NCBI GenBank assembly: GCA_963971285.1
Contig: OZ020245.1
Location: 25,248,983-25,312,982, forward strand
Direction of reading: 5' to 3'
DNA: 64,000 nucleotides
Origin: Astropecten irregularis
Taxonomy: Eukaryota; Echinodermata; Asteroidea; Paxillosida; Astropectinidae
The number at the start of each line of letters is the position of its first letter. Positions within the stretch are counted from its first letter, which is position 1. The position numbers and the translations under genes were made by a program. The notes beneath the pieces are model-generated. The model was given only the letters and a program-made list of their open reading frames with translations. It ran no database searches and was not told the DNA's origin. Below are positions 241-59,500 of this stretch, piece by piece.

Positions 241-1309
241 CTATATCCTAAGGATCATTTCATCGATATGCGCAGCAAAGCTGCAACAATAAATATTGTT
301 GAGATGCAGGACCAAAAACCATATTATTAACTTTGGTTTCAGTTATTCAGTTAGCAAATTAAAAAAAATCCACACCGATAATGTAGATTCGCGGTCCTTT
401 AAACGATTACGCATGCAGTCATATCAGTGCCACTTCAAATGCATGCAAAAGCAAGCAGCCATTTCCCATGTTGCTGCCAAGATGTCTTATGAAGGTTTCA
501 TGTATATTCAATAACATTATCTGCATTTGTGTCCTGCTGTACAGGCCAAGCCAGGCACAGTGCAATGCTATTTGCACTTCAATCTTGGACAGCCTCAGTC
601 AACCACAGGACCCAGGAGAGACTCCTCCCTGAGCACAGGTACTTTAGTTACCCCCCATCCCATCCCACTTTCATTCCTCTGCCTTTATTCCCCTACAGGT
701 TCTCATCTGTTGATGTGCATACATGTACAGTATGAATGCATCTAGACGAGCAAGTCAGTGCAGCATTTCAGCCTGACTACAAAGGCTCAGGTGTATTGCA
801 TGACTGGGCCAAATGGCTGGCAAGCTTTTAACAACACCTGATGCACAAAATGGTGTAAAGTAAACCAGTCCGATTAAACTTGGTGGGGTTGTGTGTGGGT
901 GTACTAAGTAAATCGTAATATCTGCAGCAGTTTGTTATACAAGCGCATCATGTAAAATGTACTTCAGGTAATAGTTAGGGAAGATTCACCCCCATTTTAA
1001 AAAGATTTGCTGGAAACATACACCTTTACACGGCAATATTTGCTAAACTTTTTTCATGTTGTTCACAATTTTGAGCACACGATGAAATGTTGGTATTTTT
1101 GTCTGTTAACCGTTAACTGATTTTTAACTGTATTTTTTTTTTACGAATAAATAAACATACCATAAAGCTAGGACAGCAAATATGTGTACATAACAGTACC
1201 ACTTAAATAGTATTCATGACCAATTTGTATATGTACAGTACGCACCGCACGTAAAATATGTTTAAATGTGATGTGGTACAGTCAGTACCTGTACATGTAC
1301 ATGTAAGTA

Positions 1310-1560
1310 GCACTAGGTACAGTGGCTCGCGGCCAGTCTTGGTACAGATTTTGCGGTAAGAAATCTGCTTTTGACATCGCAAAAAGGTACCGTTTGCAGT
1401 AATTAATTTGTCACGCTTTGCAAGTCCGCTTATGACCAACTCCAAATATTCTGTAGGGTTGCACCAGCACCAATATATCACGATATTCCCGATATTTCTA
1501 TATTTTTTTAGGGACCCGATATGATTTTCGATATGTAACGAGTTTCCAAACATCTTCATA
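1310..1560 (-). mobile_element. Fragment of a hAT-like element
   Basis: Bases 1315-1395, read on the minus strand, match the interior of the hAT-like element at 10984-12059. Shared words include TGTCAAAAGCAGAT, CGCAAAATCTGTACC and GCGAGCCAC. The segment at 1455-1540 (GTAGGGTTGCACCAGCACC followed by ATATCGATAT-type sequence) resembles a hAT terminus. A further relative lies at 12350-12610. It looks like a degenerate non-autonomous copy. Confidence 0.4.
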
Positions 1561-1753
1561 TCGAACAAGCTAAATATAATGATGCAGTGTACATGTCGTA
1601 TATACCGTACATAGATTATGTTATGCTCAGCATGTAGACAACTCAGATATGACTCTACAGTAACATCAGACATCACATGTTCCTTTGCAAACCAAGCAAT
1701 GTTGGTGTCAGCCCTTAGGGCAACTGGGAATTGAAACATACATCATGTATTGT

Positions 1754-2103
1754 GGTTTCAGGTCAACTCGGTCCGAAGCCAACTCGGTCCGAGTCAACTC
1801 GGTCCGTAGCCAACTCGGTCCGAAGCCAACTCGGTCCGTGACCAACTCGGTCCGTAACCAACTCGGTCCGATGCCAACTCGGTCCGTAACCAACTCGGTC
1901 CGTGACCAACTCGGTCCGTGACCAACTCGGTCCGTATGGGAAAATGCACGCAAAAACGTCTGGTAATTTTGTTGCAGCAAAACGACTACGTAGTCTCGCA
2001 AATTGCGTGAATTTAACTATTTAATTAAGCCTATTGATTTATTTATTCATTTATTATCTTAAAAACATTAAAAAAAACATTGGCAGGTGCTGCCCAGGGA
2101 TGA

Positions 2104-2137
<34 letters not shown>

Positions 2138-2745
2138 GTCATCAAAAGACGTGCCTTCCCAAACACCTGCCCATTATAAATCTTATATATGTATATACAC
2201 AGATTAATTAAAACAAAGCTAAAAAATGAAAAACAAAAACACAAAACAATCATCATTATTATTCATTAGGCCTAATTGATTTATTAATTTTAAACATAAA
2301 AAGCACGTTTTCATAAGGTATTTGACTTCGTGTATAATTTAATTGATATTTTAATTAAAATTGTATTGTGCCATTTTATCAAATAATAATGATATCAACG
2401 TAATAAGACATAATTTATTTCTTCACGGTTTCAGCCACAAGCAAAACATATTATGTTATGATGACATTAAAAAACATTAATGCAAGTAGCCTACATGTTG
2501 TACACTGCTGCTTCAAACTGGATTCTTGTTTGTGTAGGTTTTCCCATAGGGACCGAGTTGGTCACGGACCGAGTTGGTTACGGACCGAGTTGGACACGGA
2601 CCGAGTTTGCCAAGGACCGAGTTGGCCAAGGACCGAGTTGGTCACGGACCGAGTTGGCTTCGTACCGAGTTGGTCTCGGACCGAGTTGGTCACGGACCGA
2701 GTTGACTCGGACCGAGTTGGTTACGGACCGAGTTGACTGGCACCC
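1754..2745. mobile_element. TU-like foldback transposon (family 1)
   Basis: A 992-bp element is flanked by an exact 8-bp direct repeat TGTATTGT (1746-1753 and 2746-2753). Each end is an array of a 16-bp tandem repeat, with unit CAACTCGGTCCGTGAC and variants. The left array spans about 1762-1935 and the right array about 2551-2739, in opposite orientation, so the ends form long inverted repeats. The outermost bases also pair (left GGTTTCAGGTCAACTCGG, right complement GGGTGCCAGTCAACTCGG), as do the inner edges (TATGGGAAAA). The interior is AT-rich, has a 32-base A run at 2105-2136, and shows no transposase. Terminal tandem repeats with an 8-bp duplication recall the sea-urchin TU elements. Confidence 0.8.
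2105..2136. repeat. Poly(A) tract inside the TU-like element
   Basis: A run of 32 A residues lies in the interior of the TU-like element. It may be length-polymorphic or an assembly weak point. Confidence 0.9.
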
Positions 2746-4564
2746 TGTATTGTACAGTGTACAGTACATAAATGTATAGTGTACATATATGTACTATGTA
2801 TGTACATTGTATAGTGCGTACATTCTCAAGAGCAAAGGTACATGTACATGTATGTACATGTACTGTAAGTGGCAATGGAATGGTGTGCACATACATGTAC
2901 ATGTATCACTGGTCAGCATTGCATGCATCCAGTAATATGCACAGGTCTCGGTACACCTGTCTCTGCATCTTGAATAAAGTATGGCAACAATGTTAATTAG
3001 GGTAATGAAGGATAGTCAGTAATCAGTACATTTAGTCAATTACTTGTACGGGTCTACTGTACATGATGTACATGTACACACATGTACACAAATTATGTCT
3101 GGCACTCAAGTGATTTTCACTGAAATGTACCGTATGGAGTCAGGGATCTGATTGTAATTAACCTTGCACATTCACAAAATGTATACGCGTGTGTACATGA
3201 ATAAAATGCTATCAAAAAGGCACTGGCTCAGTGGACAAAAAACTGATCAGGACCATGTAGTGGGTACATACATAAAGGTACAGTACCAGTATACCAAGTA
3301 TGCATTCAAAAATTGCACAATGCACATTTCTTTTAATCTTTTAACATACATACATATAAAAAGAGGAAACAAATTTGTTTCTACCTTTACAATGTATGCA
3401 CTGTACTGTACACTTACTGTACACCTCATGTAAATATTACACTTATATTACAGTGCGTGTGTACAGTACAGTAACAAACCCTTGATGATCAGTGAATTGA
3501 TACTGGTACTTAGTAATGACAGTATTCACATGTCGAAAATGTCACTCGCAGACATGTGGGAGGAAAACTTGACCCACACACAAGTCTACTCACACTTGCA
3601 CATATACATGTACACTGTCAGCTGACCGTACAATTACTGTGCGTGCAGATGTACATGTACAGTATGGCTAACATGTACATGTATACGTGTGTGTATATTA
3701 CGTACAGTACGTCTGCATACAAGTACTGCTTGTGTTAATTCTTGCACAGTACAGTGTATTATCTGTTTATTTCAGAACAGCTTACTAAACTGGTAAGACA
3801 TTCACATGGCACATCACAAAATTCACTAAAAAAAGTACATGTGTACATCTAGGTCCATAGGCAGGTGCATACTGTATGATATAGGCCTACATATGTACAT
3901 GTACCGTATATAGAGTAGCATCCATTTCACATCCGGGGCCAAAAGCATTCTTACATGTGTAACTACATTTTAAGATAGAAATGAAATAATAATCTATTCT
4001 CATCAAACGTCAGTGTGAAAATATTCATACAATAATTGTTTTATCTCGTAAGGCCTTTAACCTGATATTACGTGTAAGAATAATGATATTTCAATATAAT
4101 TTTTGTGTGACATCTAGGTACTTCCTCATCAACTGACACATGATACTGTAATTAAGATCGTCTAGTTTTATTCTGTGACTCATAATTGTTGTAAATGTCA
4201 GGGCTAGTGCTAATGTTTTTTTATTCCTTGGTGAGCTTAAAAGTCAGGTGCATTTCTGACTAGCGGCATCAGCACTTGCCACTGACCATGCTAGATGTAC
4301 TGTATACTCAATTTATAATGCTTCAGGATCTGTGTGTATTTACATGTAAGACAATGCTGAATCACCACGAGTACTGTTAGAAAATGGACTACTACACATG
4401 TTAATGTATTATTTCACAGTGTCTTAGCACACTGCTTCTGTGTACTGGTATTCTTTACTAGCCCAGGCTTTGGTAAATGTACTGTACATGTACATTATGT
4501 ACATACAGTCTAACGTCTGTTCCTGGCAGAACACTCAAGACTGAGCGTCTGCTAGTGTGGCTGA
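2746..4564. repeat. TGTACA/ACATGT-rich low-complexity DNA
   Basis: There are dense clusters of ACATGTAC and TGTACAGTAC words, for example 2755-2910, 3050-3090 and 3590-3720. No gene is seen. Short open frames here consist of these words and are not credible proteins. Confidence 0.7.
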
Positions 4565-4806
4565 GGCCAATTTCATAGAACTGCTTAGCACAAAAATTTG
4601 CTAAGCATGACATTTCTGTCTAAGTAGTAAAAACAGGATTTGACAACAAAATTTCTGTGCGTTGTATATCACTTGCAATATTGTTCTTTGGCTAATAAAC
4701 CATGAATATCAAATGAAATTTTCAATGGTGGTTTGTTTTATTTGGGCAAGCTATTTTTGTGCTGAGCAATTTTCTTTTGCTAAGCAGCTCTATGAAATTG
4801 GCTCCA
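4565..4806. mobile_element. MITE with terminal inverted repeats (GGCCAATTTCATAGA family)
   Basis: Left end GGCCAATTTCATAGAACTGC and right end GCTCTATGAAATTGGC are inverted copies. Relatives occur around 16130-16490 and at 29095-29320; they share TCTTGCTCAATAAA and CATTTGATATT words. No coding capacity is seen. Confidence 0.7.
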
Positions 4807-5159
4807 GGTGTCTAAATCAATCTCTGAATGTCTTATGTGGCTTGCATGATGTACATCTCCTAAATGGCCATCAAGTCTGATATCACATGATCAGCACAGT
4901 ATGCTGACTGGAACGCAGTCTCTAAAGATCCCACAGTGTCCTAAAATAATGCCTGGATTGAAGTTAGTAACTGATGATTTAATGCTATTAGTTTCTGTGC
5001 CAACAGTAAGTTCAGGAAGTTGGGAATATTATTAGTCACTCCTCGAAGGCTCTGTCGGGAGCACACGTGTCATGTATGCAGTCAACGTTATCCCAAGATT
5101 TACTGCCTTGTACACATGCTGTACAAGTCCCTTACACAAATAATAGATTTAGTGCACAG

Positions 5160-5226
5160 AACATGCTGTGAGAGGCACTGAGACCTGTACATGTACATGT
5201 ACATGTACATGTACTGTACATGTACT
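5160..5226. repeat. (CATGTA)n microsatellite
   Basis: Bases 5187-5225 are a nearly pure run of the hexamer CATGTA ending in TGTACATGTACT. This is the clearest microsatellite form of the word that is scattered through the first 18 kb. Confidence 0.8.
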
Positions 5227-5263
5227 CTATTGTTTGAGACTTGATGACATCATAACAATGTCA

Positions 5264-5985
5264 ATTCATTCATTCATTCATTCATTAAAGGTTTATTAAA
5301 AATCACGTTGCAACAAAAGAGTTGAATTGAGTGATTACAAGAAAAACTAAAACAACATTAAACGATTAACATAAAAATTATTTAACAGCAAAGAGACAGT
5401 ATTCATTAGAAAGTACAAACATACATTTATGTAAATACAAATAAATTAGTTAAATAAATCACAATTTAACAATTGAACATAAAAAAAAGGTTACCAACAA
5501 TGAGACGGTGTTCATTAAAAAGTACAAACATACATTTGTATATACACTTAAAATTTGTTAGATAAATCACCATTTAACAATTGAACATAAAAAGGAATTG
5601 GACTTTTAATTAAGGTATCGTTTTGTGACCCATTTAGGGGTAGTGAGTTTGTTTGAGTTTCTCAGATCCCGATTGTGTTGATCACCCCTAATTGCTGGAA
5701 GCCAATGACGGAACTGATTTGAATGATAAAGTGAGGTAGCAAATGTACGACATAATGCATTCCTACGAGTCTGGAGGGTTTGAATATTGCACAATTTTAA
5801 AGCATCGTCATAACTGTTATAATTATTACCAAAGACAATCCGAAGTGCACGTTTCTGGATTCTTTCCAATGAGGCAGACTGTTTGTCATTGAGACCTGGG
5901 TGCCAAACAGGAGTTGCATACTCAGCTAAAGGGCGTATGTAACCAACATAAACTGTCAATTTCATTTCTACTGGTATAATCTAGA
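5264..5985 (-). mobile_element. 5'-truncated non-LTR retrotransposon, end of reverse-transcriptase ORF
   Basis: A minus-strand frame at 5606-5965 encodes about 119 residues typical of the end of LINE ORF2. It has YIRPLAEYATPVWHPGL, then ERIQKRALRI, then a paired-Arg segment (QTRRNALCRTFA). The 3' non-coding part holds two tandem copies of a unit of about 110 bp (near 5390-5490 and 5500-5595). It ends in a short ATTC/GAAT tetramer run at 5268-5287, as in CR1/L2-like LINEs that finish in microsatellites. The reading frame has no intact start or upstream RT core, so this is a dead 5'-truncated copy. Confidence 0.75.
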
Positions 5986-6053
5986 ATAAACCCCAATAAT
6001 TTTAAGAGAGAGAAGTTCAGAAAGGCCTGTTGGTCATTAATAATTATTAAGTA

Positions 6054-6345
6054 GGGTTTGAAGTTTTGCATGGTGGAGACTAGAATGAGTAAGACTTGCG
6101 GAGACACCATGTAAGCCTACATGTATAATACTCGTAAAGGAAGATGTGTGATTCTGACAAGGACTGATGAGAGTAGATTCTTGACGTTTCGACTAGTGTG
6201 CTGTAGTCGTCCTCTCTCTAGTCACTCTCTCTCCTGAGGACGACTAGAGCACACTTGTCGAAACATCGAGAATCGGTCCTTTTCAGGACCACACATCTTC
6301 CTAAAAGAGTATTATACATGTACATGGTGTCTCCGCAAGTCTTAC
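6054..6345. mobile_element. Foldback element with hammerhead-like modules, copy 1
   Basis: The outer arms pair: AAGACTTGCGGAGACACCATG near 6097 and its complement near 6330. Each inner arm carries a module CTGAGGA, stem CGACTA...TAGTCG or TGTCG, then AAAC. The module lies at about 6181-6213 on the minus strand and 6233-6267 on the plus strand. The same outer words (TTTGCATGGTG, GCGGA.ACACCATGTAAG) define copies at 53405-53735 and 62547-62835. No protein is encoded. Confidence 0.65.
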
Positions 6346-36762: not shown

Positions 36763-37325
36763 ACATTTCAAGCGAGTCGGATTTGATTTTTGGGACCGGG
36801 AACTGTTTTTTTTTTCCCAGTCCCAAAAATCAAATCCGACTCGCTTGAAATATGTCGACATTTCATCTCAACCCGGCCGGAACCAGTTTTTTTTTTCTGA
36901 AAAAGTGGCTCGACCCGACAGGTCCGGACCTGCGAGCCGAACGTCCCGGGTTCAAGACCTGGCCAGAACCGGGTTTTTTTTTCCCGGTCCCAAAAATCAA
37001 ATCCGCTCGCTTGAAATATGTCGAAATTTCATCTCATCTTCAAGTCGGAAAAAGTGGCTCGAGCCGACAGGTCCGGACCTGCGAGCTGAACGTCCTGGGT
37101 TCAAGACCTGGCCGGAACCCGTTTATTTTGTCGCGGTCCCCAGAAAATCAAATCCGACTCGCTTGAATTAAATACGTTGAAATTTCATCTCACCTTGAAG
37201 TCGGAAAAAGTGGCTCGAGCCGACAGGTCCGGACCTGCGAGCCGAACGTCCCGGGTTCAAGACCCGGCCGGAACCGGTTTTTTTTTTCCGGGCCCAAAAA
37301 ATTAAATCCGACTCGCTTGAAATGC
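36763..37325. repeat. Tandem array of ~150-165 bp units with tRNA-like segments
   Basis: The block AAAATCAAATCCGACTCGCTTG recurs near 36828, 36992, 37146 and 37298, and once inverted at 36765-36797. Each unit has AGTGGCTCGAGCCGACAGG, CCGGACCTGCGAGC and CGGGTTCAAGACCCGG, then a T run. The GGTTCAAGACC word fits a Pol III B-box and CCGGG/CCCGG forms a T-like stem; T runs could act as Pol III stops. The array ends about 150 bp before the CCDC32 start codon. Confidence 0.75.
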
Positions 37326-50066: not shown

Positions 50067-53000
50067 ATGAAGAGTATTTTGCGCCCACGGACATTTGTCT
50101 ACTTGTACTTTATCTTATCAACCGGTGGGATTTTGTGGTTTATCGTGAATTATGGTGAGTTGCGAATAATTATGTTACGTGCACAGCTCAGCTCGAAATG
50201 GGTCAAGTCGTACCCAAGTTAACTCGTACCCAAGTCAAGTCGTACCCCAAAAATGACACCCAAGTCAACTCGTACCCAAGTCATCTCGTACCCAAGTTAA
50301 CTGGTACCCAGGTTAAGTCGTACCCGAGTCAAGTCGTACCCCATTATTGCACAAGGCATGCGGCTGCCGCCAACAGACTTCGAAGCTGTCATACTCCGTA
50401 CTTGTATTAAATTGACATCTATGTAAAGGTTGAATTAAGATGAATATAAAACTACAACTAGGCTTACTGTCTGGCTGTTTTAATTTTGCTGTGTTTTAAT
50501 CGTTTGTCGGGCGCGGGGTATGAACAGGGATTATGTGGGCAGGTGGAATGCGCAATTGATTTTGATTTTGAAACGGACGGTGAGGGATGGGGTGTTTTGT
50601 TCAATTGATTTTGAAACAGGAATTTGTTGGAGGCGGGTTCTCGAATGATAAATAATAATTTTGAAATTAATGTGATTTTTTCGATTAAAAGAGACATTAG
50701 AATACGATAATTAAAATGTCACGGTCTACACGAACGAGATTTTATTCACAATTGCATAGGGGTACGAGTTGACTTGGGTACGAGTTGACTTGGGTACGAG
50801 TTAACTGGGGTACGACTTGACTTGGGTACGACTTGACTTGGGTACGACTTAACTTGGGTACGAGATGACTTGGGTACGAGTTAACTTGGGTACGAGATGA
50901 CCCAAAATCGCTCAGCTCAGGCTCTTGGACTGTGCAGACGAAATCGCACAGTGCAGGGGAACTCCCCTGGGCCCTGCCACTGCCACTGTACAAGTACAAG
51001 TGTACATGTGTGCCAGACTTGTCGTTTCAGTACGAAAGATGAACATGCAGTTCAACTTACACACATTTGTTCGCAGAGAATAATGTAAATCCCACTTTAA
51101 AATAAGTTAAATTATGTAACATTAACATGTTCTTTTTGTCAATTTTATATCATGCAGATAACCAGTTTTGCCCTTTTTTAGCAGATAACTTCCACTGTTT
51201 TCATTTTTATATAGAAACTTTGAACAGTCACTATTACCATGGAGGAATAAAACATTTCCCCCATGGTGTTACATAAATACATCACAAAAGTGATAGTACC
51301 CTGTATATCATCATGAAGTGACTGCTGCTATATTACTTTAATTATTAATACCATGGAGGTAGAAATAGATTCCACCTCCATGTTAATACCAACCACTAAC
51401 CTTTGGGTAGGCCTACTATTGGTTTACAAAAGTTCCAAAAATGTACAGAAATTCCACTGATGACCATTACGGAAAAGGGATGATATCCTCCAAGAGTTAA
51501 CTTATTGCTTACAAATTGATGAATTTCAATCTCAGTTGTATAAAACTGGGGTAGCATATTTTTGGGGGGTTTTACCTACAATTATACACTCCGAATGCCC
51601 TCTGTCAGTTCCATAGGTTTGTGTACAAGTAATGGTTGTCAGTGGAATTCTTCCCAATTTTACTGTTGACAGATTAGTATGTGTGTGCAGTTAACTCCAG
51701 TGTCATTTTTGTGTGTGGCTAACTCACTCATAATTTCACTAAAAAGCTTAAAACTCTGCCAAATTTCCAAAGCCTAGGTAGCTTGCGAACATCAAAATGG
51801 ATATCAAAACAGTTTCTGTGAGTTTGGAAAGAGCAATGCAATGGGAGACTTTGGAGAACCGGTCTTCTAGTCAACAGTGCACGTGCACGCATGTGCAAAA
51901 CAACGCGCACATGCTCACAATTGCGTGCGCGTGCGCTGTTTTCTTGAAGACTGGATTTCCAAAGTCTCCCATTGTCTTTTGCCTTGAGGACAGGGGTGTT
52001 ATTGTAAGCCAAAGCCAACCTTTTTGTCCTAAATCCAGTAGTATTCACCAGACCATTTGTCCTACCTCCATGCTGAAAGTTAATATCATCTAATGTATTT
52101 GTTCTTTGTTTCCTAGATTCCTTTTGTTCCCAAGACTCTAAACATGGCAACCACAAACACCCGTACCTCATGCAAGTTATCAATGACAATTATAAAGCGA
52201 AACAGGCGGAACTCCTCAACAGACAGAAGGAACTCCAAGACCAGAGGAAAGCTCTTGAGAATATGTCGGAGCATCTACGGCAACAGTATCCATGGAATGT
52301 GGACAATACCACCAAGCTAGTGAACATCATCAATGCGAGTATGCCCACTATATATGCCATCACCCCAACACACACACGGCCTGTGCAGAAGGCAGAGTTG
52401 ACAAGGATATCACAGACATTCCTTCATGTCAAGAACTTTCACTGGATAGTTGTGGAAGATGCCAAAAATAAGACGAGCCTTGTAACAAGATTCTTGAAAA
52501 AGTGCGGGCTGAAGTTCACCCACTTGAATTGTAGGACACCCGAGCCTCACAGAATGGGCGCTAATGATCCCAACTGGTTGAAACCCAGAGGGGTTGAACA
52601 GAGAAACACTGCTATCGAGTGGTTGCTGAAGAATATTGATGTTGAGAAACATCCAGGAGTTGTCTATTTTGCTGATGATGACAACACTTACGATCTACGA
52701 ATATTTGAAGAGGTAGGCCTACAGCATGCACATGCACACAACTTATAAGAAATATCCCACACTTGCAGGTATATATTTGTAAGTAAACTAATGCCGTGTC
52801 CCAAATATCTGGCTGCTGCTGCAAATTACACAAACACCCCACTAGCCAGACTTGTGTGTTGCTTGCAGTCGCAACCAGAGATTTGGGATACCAACCCAAG
52901 TTAAAGGGCTGTCCCTTCTTTGATAACAATGTCCTTATGCTCATACTATCTTCTGCGAAAATTGTAATTTTATCAAACTTGCTCAATTTGAAGTTGAAAC

Positions 53001-56519: not shown

Positions 56520-59500
56520 ATGTCACAGGATACCGGCAAATCTGGCCAGTCTTCTGGGTTTGCACACCCGGATACAGTTGATATACAAGGCGTACGATGG
56601 CCCAAGATGGTAACCCAGGAAGCTCTAGACGCCATGAAAAACTTCCAAGTAAGAGATGATGACGTATGGATTGCAACTTGGCCAAAAGCAGGCATGTATA
56701 ATATATCGAGATTAATTGGTGGTGCTGTTAAATTCATAATTTTTCATTTTGCTGAAAATTAACATTATAACACAAACATTTCGATTGCATTTTAAAGGCA
56801 CTCATTGGGTTGCTGAAATCTGTCATTTGATTCTGAACAATGGCGATCTGGAAAAAGTTGACAGACGTCAAGCTCCAATGCCACTTGAGTTTGAACCTCC
56901 TCCTGATCGGAATAAGATACCCAGATACAAGGATGCACCTCACTGGAAGTCACCACGCGTTCTCGTCACCCACGTACCTAAAAGATTCCTTCCTGACCAA
57001 GTTCTGACAAAGAGAAAGGCAAAGGTGAATTTTAGAGGAAAAGTACATTATTCAACGTTCAGTTTATATAGATTTATTGAAGTATAAGACTAATTACTGG
57101 TAAGGCATTCATGCATCTTAATTACGAGAAAGTAAATTTGATTATTAATACAGAGTTGAATTAGTACAAGCTATTTGTTCAGAGGCGATCAACACATATT
57201 CACTTGCCCTATAAGTGATGCTGCTTCGTAGTTGGCATGCTGATTATTTTTTTGATACAGTGAGTTACTGAAATCTTTACTCGGATAAACAACATCTTTT
57301 GTTTGGAATTTGTTTAATTCAAATTGTTGAATTGATAAAGTCCATATTTGGAATTGAATTATAAAATCCTTACTTTGTTTTCTTATGTCAAGGTGATCAG
57401 TGTCATTCGAAACCCCAAGGATTCGTTAGTATCCGATTACTTTTTCGTCAAGGGAATGACTCCAGGATAAACAACATCTTTTGTTTGGAATTTGTTTAAT
57501 TCAAATTGTTGAATTGATAAAGTCCATATTTGGAATTGAATTATAAAATCCTTACTTTGTTTTCTTATGTCAAGGTGATCACTGTCATTCGAAACCCCAA
57601 GGATTCGTTAGTATCCGATTACTTTTTCGTCAAGGGAATGACTCCAGGATTCACAGACACATTCGAAGACAGCCTGCAGAGATTTCTGTACTCGGACATG
57701 GGTAAATTATACAATGATATAAAATACATGTCATAATTCGTCTATATTGTTGCGTGGTCATGTCAAAATAATATCTTTGTGGTGTTCAACAATAACTAGG
57801 ACGTACACAGCACATGACTCAAGTCAGCTACACTGCATAATCGGCGGCGTATCTACGTGAAACGGTGCCCGGGGCAAGCGCTAAAATTGCGCCCCTAAAA
57901 CTAATGTCAATTAAAAACTGAAAAGAATATCAGACGATTTGAAATTGGACCTTTTTTTATTCATTGGTTCATACAGTACAGCTAGATCACAGCACACATG
58001 ACACAGGAGACAACAACATAGGGACATAATTACACGTCACCCATGCAGGACAGCATTATTACACAACTTTCGCAAAAAAAAGTTCTTCACGGTTCTCGGG
58101 CAGCCACAGACGTAAAATGTTTAGTTGTGTTCATGGGCGTAGATCCCGGGGGGCTAGGGGGGTTGCAACCCCCCCCAGGTTTTCACTTTTTATATATAAA
58201 ACATGTTTTTGTGCACAAAAGTATATGGAAGAACGACCCAGTTACACGATCAACCCCCCCCCCCCCCCCCCCCCAAGCAGGCGCGGTTCTACGGGGGGCT
58301 AGGGGGGGGGGCTGTAGCCCCCCAAAATTTTTGTCTAGCCCCCCAAAAAAATGCAAGTGAAAAAAAAAATCTTGAAAATACTGGATTTTTTTAGTTATTA
58401 AGCGCCAATTACACTTTAAAAAAAACGCGTTGTGTGGCCTATAATGTGCATGTTTTTCGACCCCTATTATAAGACATAGCAGAAGCGAGTGTTAGAAGAA
58501 CCCAAAATATTGGGTCTTCTAGCCCCCAAAAAAATAATGGCTCTTCTAGCCTCCCCAAAAATGTTGGCACTAGAACCGCGCCTGCCCCCCCCCCCCCCAG
58601 GTCTGAGGACGTGTCTACACTACTGGTTGTGAAAATACATGTTCAAAATGAACTAATAAAATTGTCTTTGTGTAAATTCATTGATCGATTTTTGGGGGTA
58701 TATTATTCTTGTTCTAGTTGAGTTTACCTCATGGTTTGATCATGTCTTGGAGTATTGGGCAGAACGTCACAACAAACGTCATCTGATTCTTAAATACGAG
58801 GATATGAAGGCGGTATGTATTAGACTGTATATACATAATGAAACTATACATTGTAGCTGTGTATAAAGACATTTGGGGTTTAGGTGAACAAAAGCTAATT
58901 GACTTGACTATAAATATGACATATGGATTACTGTCCCAGCAAGTACTGTCCAGCAGTATTTAAAAAAAAATCTTTTCCCCATTATTTTTCATCTTTAAGA
59001 GATAAAAAAAAAGATCATTGGTTTTACTCTTTTCTGGATAAATACAGCATTTCAGGCAAAACTATTTTAACGGCAGGCTATGTTTCTACCATCATCATCT
59101 TTATACCCTGTAAGTTATATATCTGTGAAGAGTTCTGTTTCGGTATGCTACCAAAGTAGTACCTTTAACACGGGAGAAGAAGACTTTATATGCAGCCTGT
59201 TATATTCAGTATAAACATTTCTTGCAAATAGGACACACGAGGAGCAGTCGTACAGATCGCCGACTTTTTGGAATGCCCCTTAGAAAACGGAATCATTGAT
59301 AAGATTACAGACCTGGTGACTGTCAAGAGCATGAAGACCCGATACCACAAAGAAGGAGAACTTCCAAAGCCAGGAGAAACGGCAAGAAAAGTGGGCGCAC
59401 CGAACTTGGTTCGAAAAGGTTGGTAGTCACAAATCACAATGGACAACAAATAAACAATTTAATAACGTCAATTAGATTATATCTGTTCTGTTCTGTGCAA

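Follow-up and report, generated by a model that had tools for sequence, protein, structure and literature searches.

The 716-bp element at positions 50194-50909 of the window, by which we mean the whole 64,000-nucleotide stretch of Astropecten irregularis DNA analysed, is very probably a MITE-like, internally deleted derivative of a foldback-ended MULE, that entered this site by cut-and-paste transposition, most likely through a transposase acting in trans. We observed its fixed ends, inverted arrays and target-site duplications, a family of copies across the genome, and a longer relative that predicts a transposase and whose middle part the window element has lost. The element and its parts are as follows.

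50194..50909, plus strand: whole element of 716 bp, classed as non-autonomous and MULE-type, A end on the left and B end on the right, with ends matching other genomic copies
50186..50193, no strand: left target-site duplication GCTCAGCT, from sequence and flank comparison
50194..50204, plus strand: A-end terminal motif CGAAATGGGTC, 11 bp, genome pattern CGAAATGGGTCAAGTCG
50205..50341, plus strand: A-side array of eight 16-bp units, one step measuring 30 bp, from Tandem Repeats Finder and core positions
50342..50759, plus strand: internal part without transposase, from the alignment to the longer relative L089
50760..50901, minus strand: B-side array of 9 units of 16 bp, inverted, from Tandem Repeats Finder and core positions
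50899..50909, minus strand: B-end terminal motif GATTTTGGGTC, genome pattern GATTTTGGGTCATCTCG
50910..50917, no strand: right target-site duplication GCTCAGCT, from sequence and flank comparison

A sequence-only reading of this DNA had proposed inverted 16-bp arrays between direct repeats, and these are real. Tandem Repeats Finder detected a period of 16 at 50202-50341 and 50760-50901, and each array repeats the other in inverted orientation. Cores of TCGTACCC, with at most two mismatches, occur eight times on the plus strand of the element at steps of 16, 16, 30, 16, 16, 16 and 16, and nine times on the minus strand at steps that are all 16; about 420 bp lie between the arrays. The words CGTACCC/GGGTACG were found at 17 places in the window, 16 of them within 50194-50909, against a mean of 3.3 in 200 mononucleotide shuffles of the window, and folding of the element strand gave z = -16.6 relative to 20 shuffles. 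Taken alone, the window element fits two choices of edge, either the 8-bp duplication GCTCAGCT with an initial C at 50194 or the 9-bp duplication GCTCAGCTC with a start one base later. We set the edge at 50194 with the 8-bp duplication because 89 of the 93 A ends matched in the genome start with C and the other copies mostly have exactly 8 bp outside. The coordinates, unit and direct repeat proposed earlier were right to within one base; the start is corrected to 50194.

The genome searched comprises 475.7 Mb (G000, 475.73 Mb), and the window sits in its contig C8. The exact 16-mer of the window element was found at 213 places on the plus and 179 on the minus strand (392 genome-wide) and its reversed pattern at none. 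The A-end pattern CGAAATGGGTCAAGTCG, which consists of the A-end motif plus the first core bases, has 93 genome places and the B-end pattern GATTTTGGGTCATCTCG 110, each with at most one mismatch, against 1 and 2 for the reversed controls. With these A and B ends, the possibility raised beforehand that no element with matching ends exists elsewhere does not hold. The window element belongs to a transposon family with the fixed, asymmetric ends CGAAATGGGTC and GATTTTGGGTC, which we call family 2.

For the comparison of loci we used 20 places, 8 further short loci, and A ends with a longer or shorter adjoining sequence (20 with 7 kb, 40 with 941 bases), leaving out 14 one-mismatch A ends; in 21 of the 40 shorter stretches no B end was present. 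Spans from an A to a B end were then counted with at most three mismatches at each end, and L004, L005, L006 and L008 were omitted because they overlap other loci. The resulting 56 distinct spans, which include cross-spans over neighbouring or nested copies and two apparently duplicated locus pairs (L011/L012 and L029/L030), carry a perfect 8-bp duplication in 38 cases and a perfect 9-bp duplication in 2; 6/56 have one mismatch at 8 bp and 10/56 neither. Perfect duplications of 7 or 10 bp occur in none of the 56. As a control, randomly re-paired left and right flanks matched perfectly 81 times in 55,005. Three of the ten spans without a duplication run across two copies (L019), run across a nested copy (L045) or have extra edge bases (L021). 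Separately, four A ends lie within 66 kb on C19 (4.27-4.34 Mb, L059-L062) and are 95.6-99.6% alike over the aligned stretches, with no B end in the fetched part; this looks like a local segmental duplication.

Pairing the lists of A and B ends led to L089, a 4,024-bp span on C11 with the window element's ends, arrays of 12 and 13 units, and the target-site duplication AATCTGAA on both sides. A MULE-like transposase with matching ends, envisaged by the sequence-only reading, is thus present in the same genome. Two reading frames across a GT-AG intron form the model of a spliced predicted transposase of 591 aa, and the whole model matches the Pfam family MULE (PF10551) with E 4.3e-9 and 37.2 bits against a cut-off of 27.6. 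In the same whole model, PHD (E 0.011) and C1 (E 0.0043) are both under the Pfam cut-off. FLYWCH is absent from the full-length scan; an isolated segment reached E 1.3e-4 and 22.5 bits against a cut-off of 23.6 and can be called FLYWCH-like. The N terminus resembles the PHD fingers of Pygopus (4.7e-5) in a sequence search of solved structures. Two kinds of finger thus seem to be combined in the predicted L089 transposase, a FLYWCH-like one that recalls Phantom and a PHD-like one that recalls Rehavkus, although each scores close to or under its Pfam cut-off. When L089 is aligned with two paralogues, common blocks stand out around WYxDGTFK, DFE/DFK and NNDxEGWHRRLN, which may hold the catalytic D, D and E.

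Bases 9-474 of the window element align with the A side of L089 at 75% identity, bases 1-85 also at 96%, and bases 521-716 align with the B side at 88-90%. Within the internal part, 50342-50667 corresponds to the A side and 50714-50759 to the B side; positions 50668-50713 (element bases 475-520) have no match in L089, and L089 551-3809 has no match in the window element. Matching both ends of L089 without its middle, the window element fits an internal deletion, and it is best classed as a deletion derivative of a Phantom/Muta/Tm1-style MULE. Because identity is about 75% over most of the A side, L089 may not be the mobiliser itself but only a relative.

Further transposase genes are present in the genome. 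Exon 2 of L089 has 66 matches, comprising itself, a 93-residue fragment at 94% and the rest at 33-62%. The paralogue L091 on C9 is 54% identical to L089 over 419 residues and matches MULE in Pfam at 1.6e-10; a separate N-terminal frame reaches 6.6e-5 for PHD (23.3 against a cut-off of 24), and Pfam reported no FLYWCH for this locus. After the L091 gene come an array of 16-bp units (CAACTCGTACGCCGAC) and a family-2 fragment, in this order, while the other side of the gene has no array or A end within the 4.6-kb locus; a tie of this gene to the unit CAACTCGTACGCCGAC would be tentative. A second paralogue, L092 on C8, contains an open reading frame of 514 aa (1341-2882, minus strand) with FLYWCH (4.2e-8, 33.7 bits) and MULE (1.1e-12) domains, both above the Pfam cut-offs. 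No ACTCG arrays lie within about 1.3 kb of L092, and therefore the arrays are not companions of every such gene. Copies of the L092 type, three on C8 and one on C11, have nearly equal scores; L092 and its sisters could be a separate MULE family or genes used by the host.

MULE target duplications are about 8-11 bp, and those of family 2 (8 bp in 38/56 spans, 9 bp in 2/56) agree in length with this superfamily and with the 8-9 bp of the Muta families; a MULE/DDE transposase in a same-ended element is provided by L089 with its PF10551 match. Both the window element and L089 have ends of the foldback type, with tandem repeats in subterminal position like those of Muta1 and Tm1. The 9-bp duplications of the Rehavkus type are not characteristic of family 2, given their two occurrences in 56 spans. 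The TU elements of sea urchins have inverted short-unit arrays and 8-bp duplications, and judged by this general description they would resemble family 2 in build; their unit, of 15 bp, differs. Sea urchin is also named in the literature as one of the hosts of foldback elements.

Muta1 and Muta5 of Aedes aegypti are MULEs that group with Phantom according to the available sections of PMC6446971, whose table has PHD as the finger of Rehavkus and, for Phantom, either FLYWCH, SWIM or no finger, lists FLYWCH also for some protist and flatworm groups, and has target duplications of mostly 9 bp in its MULE rows. The same source detected no MULE transposases for Branchiostoma floridae. As described in the accessible part of PMC5225508, Muta1 and Muta5 share with family 2 duplications of 8 or 9 bp, many non-autonomous derivatives, MULE transposases, and a short terminal motif followed by 9 subterminal tandem units, which measure 12 bp plus a 3-4 bp spacer in Muta1 and 15 bp in Muta5; unlike family 2, Muta1 has a 10-bp imperfect palindrome as its terminal motif and an insect host, and neither FLYWCH nor PHD is named for these elements there. 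Tm1 of Meloidogyne, a Mutator/Foldback element of the Phantom subclass, likewise combines asymmetric motifs with tandem repeats of variable number, and has MITE-like as well as transposase-bearing members with FLYWCH and MULE domains, whereas its terminal motifs are 7 bp, its units 13-15 bp and its duplications mostly 9 bp (PMC3169594, in part). Rehavkus, an outgroup or early branch of MULEs, has a PHD finger in its transposase, to which the PHD-like segments of L089 and L091 may be compared; it differs in its 9-bp duplications, in a minisatellite before the 3' end and in PHD being the sole finger in its table row (PMC6446971, same sections). Galileo/Foldback of Drosophila, from the P superfamily, also has long, internally repetitive ends, in which the repeats hold several transposase sites, and it differs by its THAP/P transposase (PMC3688188, in part). 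The element shares its plan with Muta1/Muta5 and Tm1, MULEs that are placed in or near Phantom. We found no publication describing these unit families among titles and abstract openings, and they may well be catalogued in Repbase.

Among 16 copies of family 2, the first core begins at base 15 from both edges in all 16, and the steps between neighbouring cores are 16 in 206/230 cases and 30 in 11/230. Of the 16, 15 have CAAGTCGTACCCAAGT as the A unit nearest the edge. Such position-bound unit variants, common to the copies, suggest that the array was for the most part passed on intact and that some copies expanded it later. The number of units varies between copies, reaching 12 to 21 on the B side of L011, L012 and the second L019 copy, and long uniform runs of units occur in some of the 16 copies only. 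The position-tied variants speak in part against the earlier idea that sequence drifts together across all units. L011 and L012, one insertion that was duplicated, have only two A-side units and yet a perfect 8-bp duplication, and long arrays on both sides are therefore unneeded or shrank later. A 32-bp super-period of units is not supported, mean identity being 0.830 at lag 1 against 0.834 at lag 2.

The window also holds a second 16-bp family, as had been noticed from the letters alone:

1754..2745, no strand: family-1 element with unit CAACTCGGTCCGTRRC, target-site duplication TGTATTGT at 1746-1753 and 2746-2753

We distinguish four unit families: family 2 with CAACTCGTACCCAAGT, in which the variants CAAGTCG and CATCTCG also occur; family 1 with CAACTCGGTCCGTRRC, in the window and in L022; family 3 with CGACTCGCCCCCTGNC, in L013; and family 4 with CAACTCGTACGCCGAC, in L091 and L001. 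The consensus CRACTCG is common to all four, its conservation in families 1 and 3 being inflated because their units were selected by the core, and the next five bases (TACCC, GTCCG, CCCCC and TACGC) differ by family. Signature words of families 1, 3 and 4 have 1,142, 385 and 1,161 genome places, with reversed controls at 0. The ends of families 2 and 1 and one family-3 end align without gaps (CGAAATGGGTCAAGTCG, GATTTTGGGTCATCTCG, GGTTTCAGGTCAACTCG, GGGTGCCAGTCAACTCG and GGAAACAGGTCAACTCG), and target duplications were found for family 2 and for two copies of family 1 only. Steps in family 1 are 16 in 39/42 cases and 15 in 3/42 (window and L022); in family 3 they are 16 in 10/15, the others being 15, 15, 23, 24 and 37 (L013). 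Family 4 has a period of 16 over 6.2 copies in L091 according to Tandem Repeats Finder, and in L001 a 29-bp period outscores 16 (159 against 83). L001 was also tried as a hybrid of two unit families, and a target duplication was not found.

Triples of AACTCG separated by 6 to 24 gave 100 listed places, all on C1, of which 43 have length 38 (step 16), 8 have 37, 31 have 44 (step 19) and 18 have other lengths; the whole counts of these triples fall under the reversed control and are uninformative. The 19-bp AACTCG unit CAACTCGCAAACRTTGCRT has 772 exact genome places (e.g. C1:179065-5571567; control 0), and inverted pairs of its arrays number 0 among 50 listed clusters; these arrays are probably another kind of element. 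In the part seen, the inverted unit families met all have 16 bp as their predominant step, so that a common register of inverted ends is supported there. The proposal of a fixed period with a varying unit stands for the step and the differing middles of the four inverted families; the 19-bp arrays and the irregular family 3 depart from it.

Nested insertions point to past mobility. At L022 1440-2660, a family-1 element lies within a family-2 element with the 8-bp duplication ATTTTAAT on both sides, and L013 has a family-2 copy in a family-3 array with the duplication GAGTTGGC. The order of the arrays in L046 suggests one family-2 copy nested in another, the outer copy having one mismatch in its duplication.

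Could the arrays be ordinary minisatellites, expanded by slippage and inverted by chance, with no transposition at all? The unit number that varies between copies would suit such an origin, as would the 19-bp-step AACTCG arrays without an inverted partner and the single-strand clusters, of which 13, 17, 34 and 28 are among those listed for families 2, 1, 3 and 4. Yet the same lists, made from the first 100 places of each family and spanning the first contigs only, contain inward-inverted clusters in 13/27, 21/38, 31/66 and 14/42 cases, with other mixed orders amounting to 2 in total across the four families. Together with the fixed termini, the 8-bp duplications in 38/56 spans, and the nested copies in L022 and L013, each flanked by a duplication of its own, this leaves the minisatellite origin with a negligible probability, and fixed ends and target duplications refute simple minisatellites for families 1 and 2. 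That the element comes from hAT, P/Galileo or Merlin, superfamilies that likewise make 8-bp duplications, and resembles MULEs by accident is also very improbable. Target duplications of 8 bp do occur in hAT and P elements. Merlin has 8-9 bp duplications and 5'-GG ends (PMC8101967, in part), and in Galileo the ends are long and repetitive and contain several THAP sites (PMC3688188, in part). However, the sole family-2 element found with a transposase gene, L089, carries MULE, for which reason we reject an identity as hAT, P or Merlin; no THAP or P family is among its Pfam rows, duplications of 9 bp occur too (2/56), as in Muta1, and the family-2 ends have no initial GG.

We regard it as unlikely, though distinctly less so, that the arrays mainly serve a role other than transposase binding, such as promoter activity or evasion of silencing, and that the transposase reads the terminal motif alone. 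The terminal motif is fixed as strongly as the units, and the duplicates L011/L012 keep a perfect duplication with 2 A-side units, as this role would allow; against it, several families have a common block at an equal distance from the end as well as the 16-bp step, and the THAP domain of Galileo binds sites within repeats of this kind (PMC3688188, in part).

We therefore return to an array-bearing MULE derivative mobilised in trans. Each of its ends has a terminal motif of 11 bp, whose sequence is not the same at A and B, and at a fixed distance from it an array of 16-bp units; the arrays of the two ends are inverted relative to each other. Cut-and-paste transposition with an 8-bp target duplication would have placed the element at 50194-50909, and the transposase of a longer relative of the L089 kind, with MULE, FLYWCH-like and PHD-like zinc-finger domains, most likely recognised it in trans; L089 or a close relative might have been the actual mobiliser. 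Every unit might offer the FLYWCH-like finger one putative binding site, around CRACTCGnnCC. A series of such sites at 16-bp intervals might raise the affinity, so that a transposase with small fingers could grip the end tightly, and 16 bp, about 1.5 turns, might set neighbouring transposases on opposite faces. Relevant precedents in the available parts of the sources are the Galileo THAP domain, which binds sites within such repeats (PMC3688188), and Muta1, which is mobile in yeast with its 12-bp units and 3-4-bp spacers (PMC5225508).

The transposase might read each unit, and units and transposase might co-evolve. Tentatively, and with more doubt than confidence, we consider that a foldback MULE clade split into at least four parallel transposase-array pairs, which kept the register, the end distance and CRACTCG while the adjoining bases came to differ. 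The FLYWCH (and PHD) transposase would then change its specificity and about twenty sites per element would follow, and the register might be kept as transposase units pack side by side on DNA. A transposase is tied to arrays at both ends in family 2 only. A common register and half-site, differing variable bases and several related transposase genes make this one genome a testable co-evolution series.

Other long copies vary in content. L090 (4,711 bp) is a family-2 copy with a non-LTR retrotransposon inside and the 8-bp duplication CCCTAGTA still present; the frames of the retrotransposon occupy 668-3753, and 668-2569 matches the Pfam endonuclease above and RT just below the cut-off. Reading frames in the long copies L045-L047 and L019 have at most 150 residues. 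For L048, a 6-kb array-flanked candidate, 5 of the 35 listed reading frames were compared with Pfam and had no match; its three longest frames are a long tandem run at 4566-6197 that is open in three frames, with repeats like SDGCPNCYPPGPNCRVRRVSQLL. Elsewhere, the window has genes for a dihydrouridine synthase and for a GT43 glycosyltransferase, and it contains a tandem repeat of 156 bp in 2.8 copies at 36899-37322 and a tandem duplication of 182 bp at 57283-57650, the two copies of which are 99% alike.
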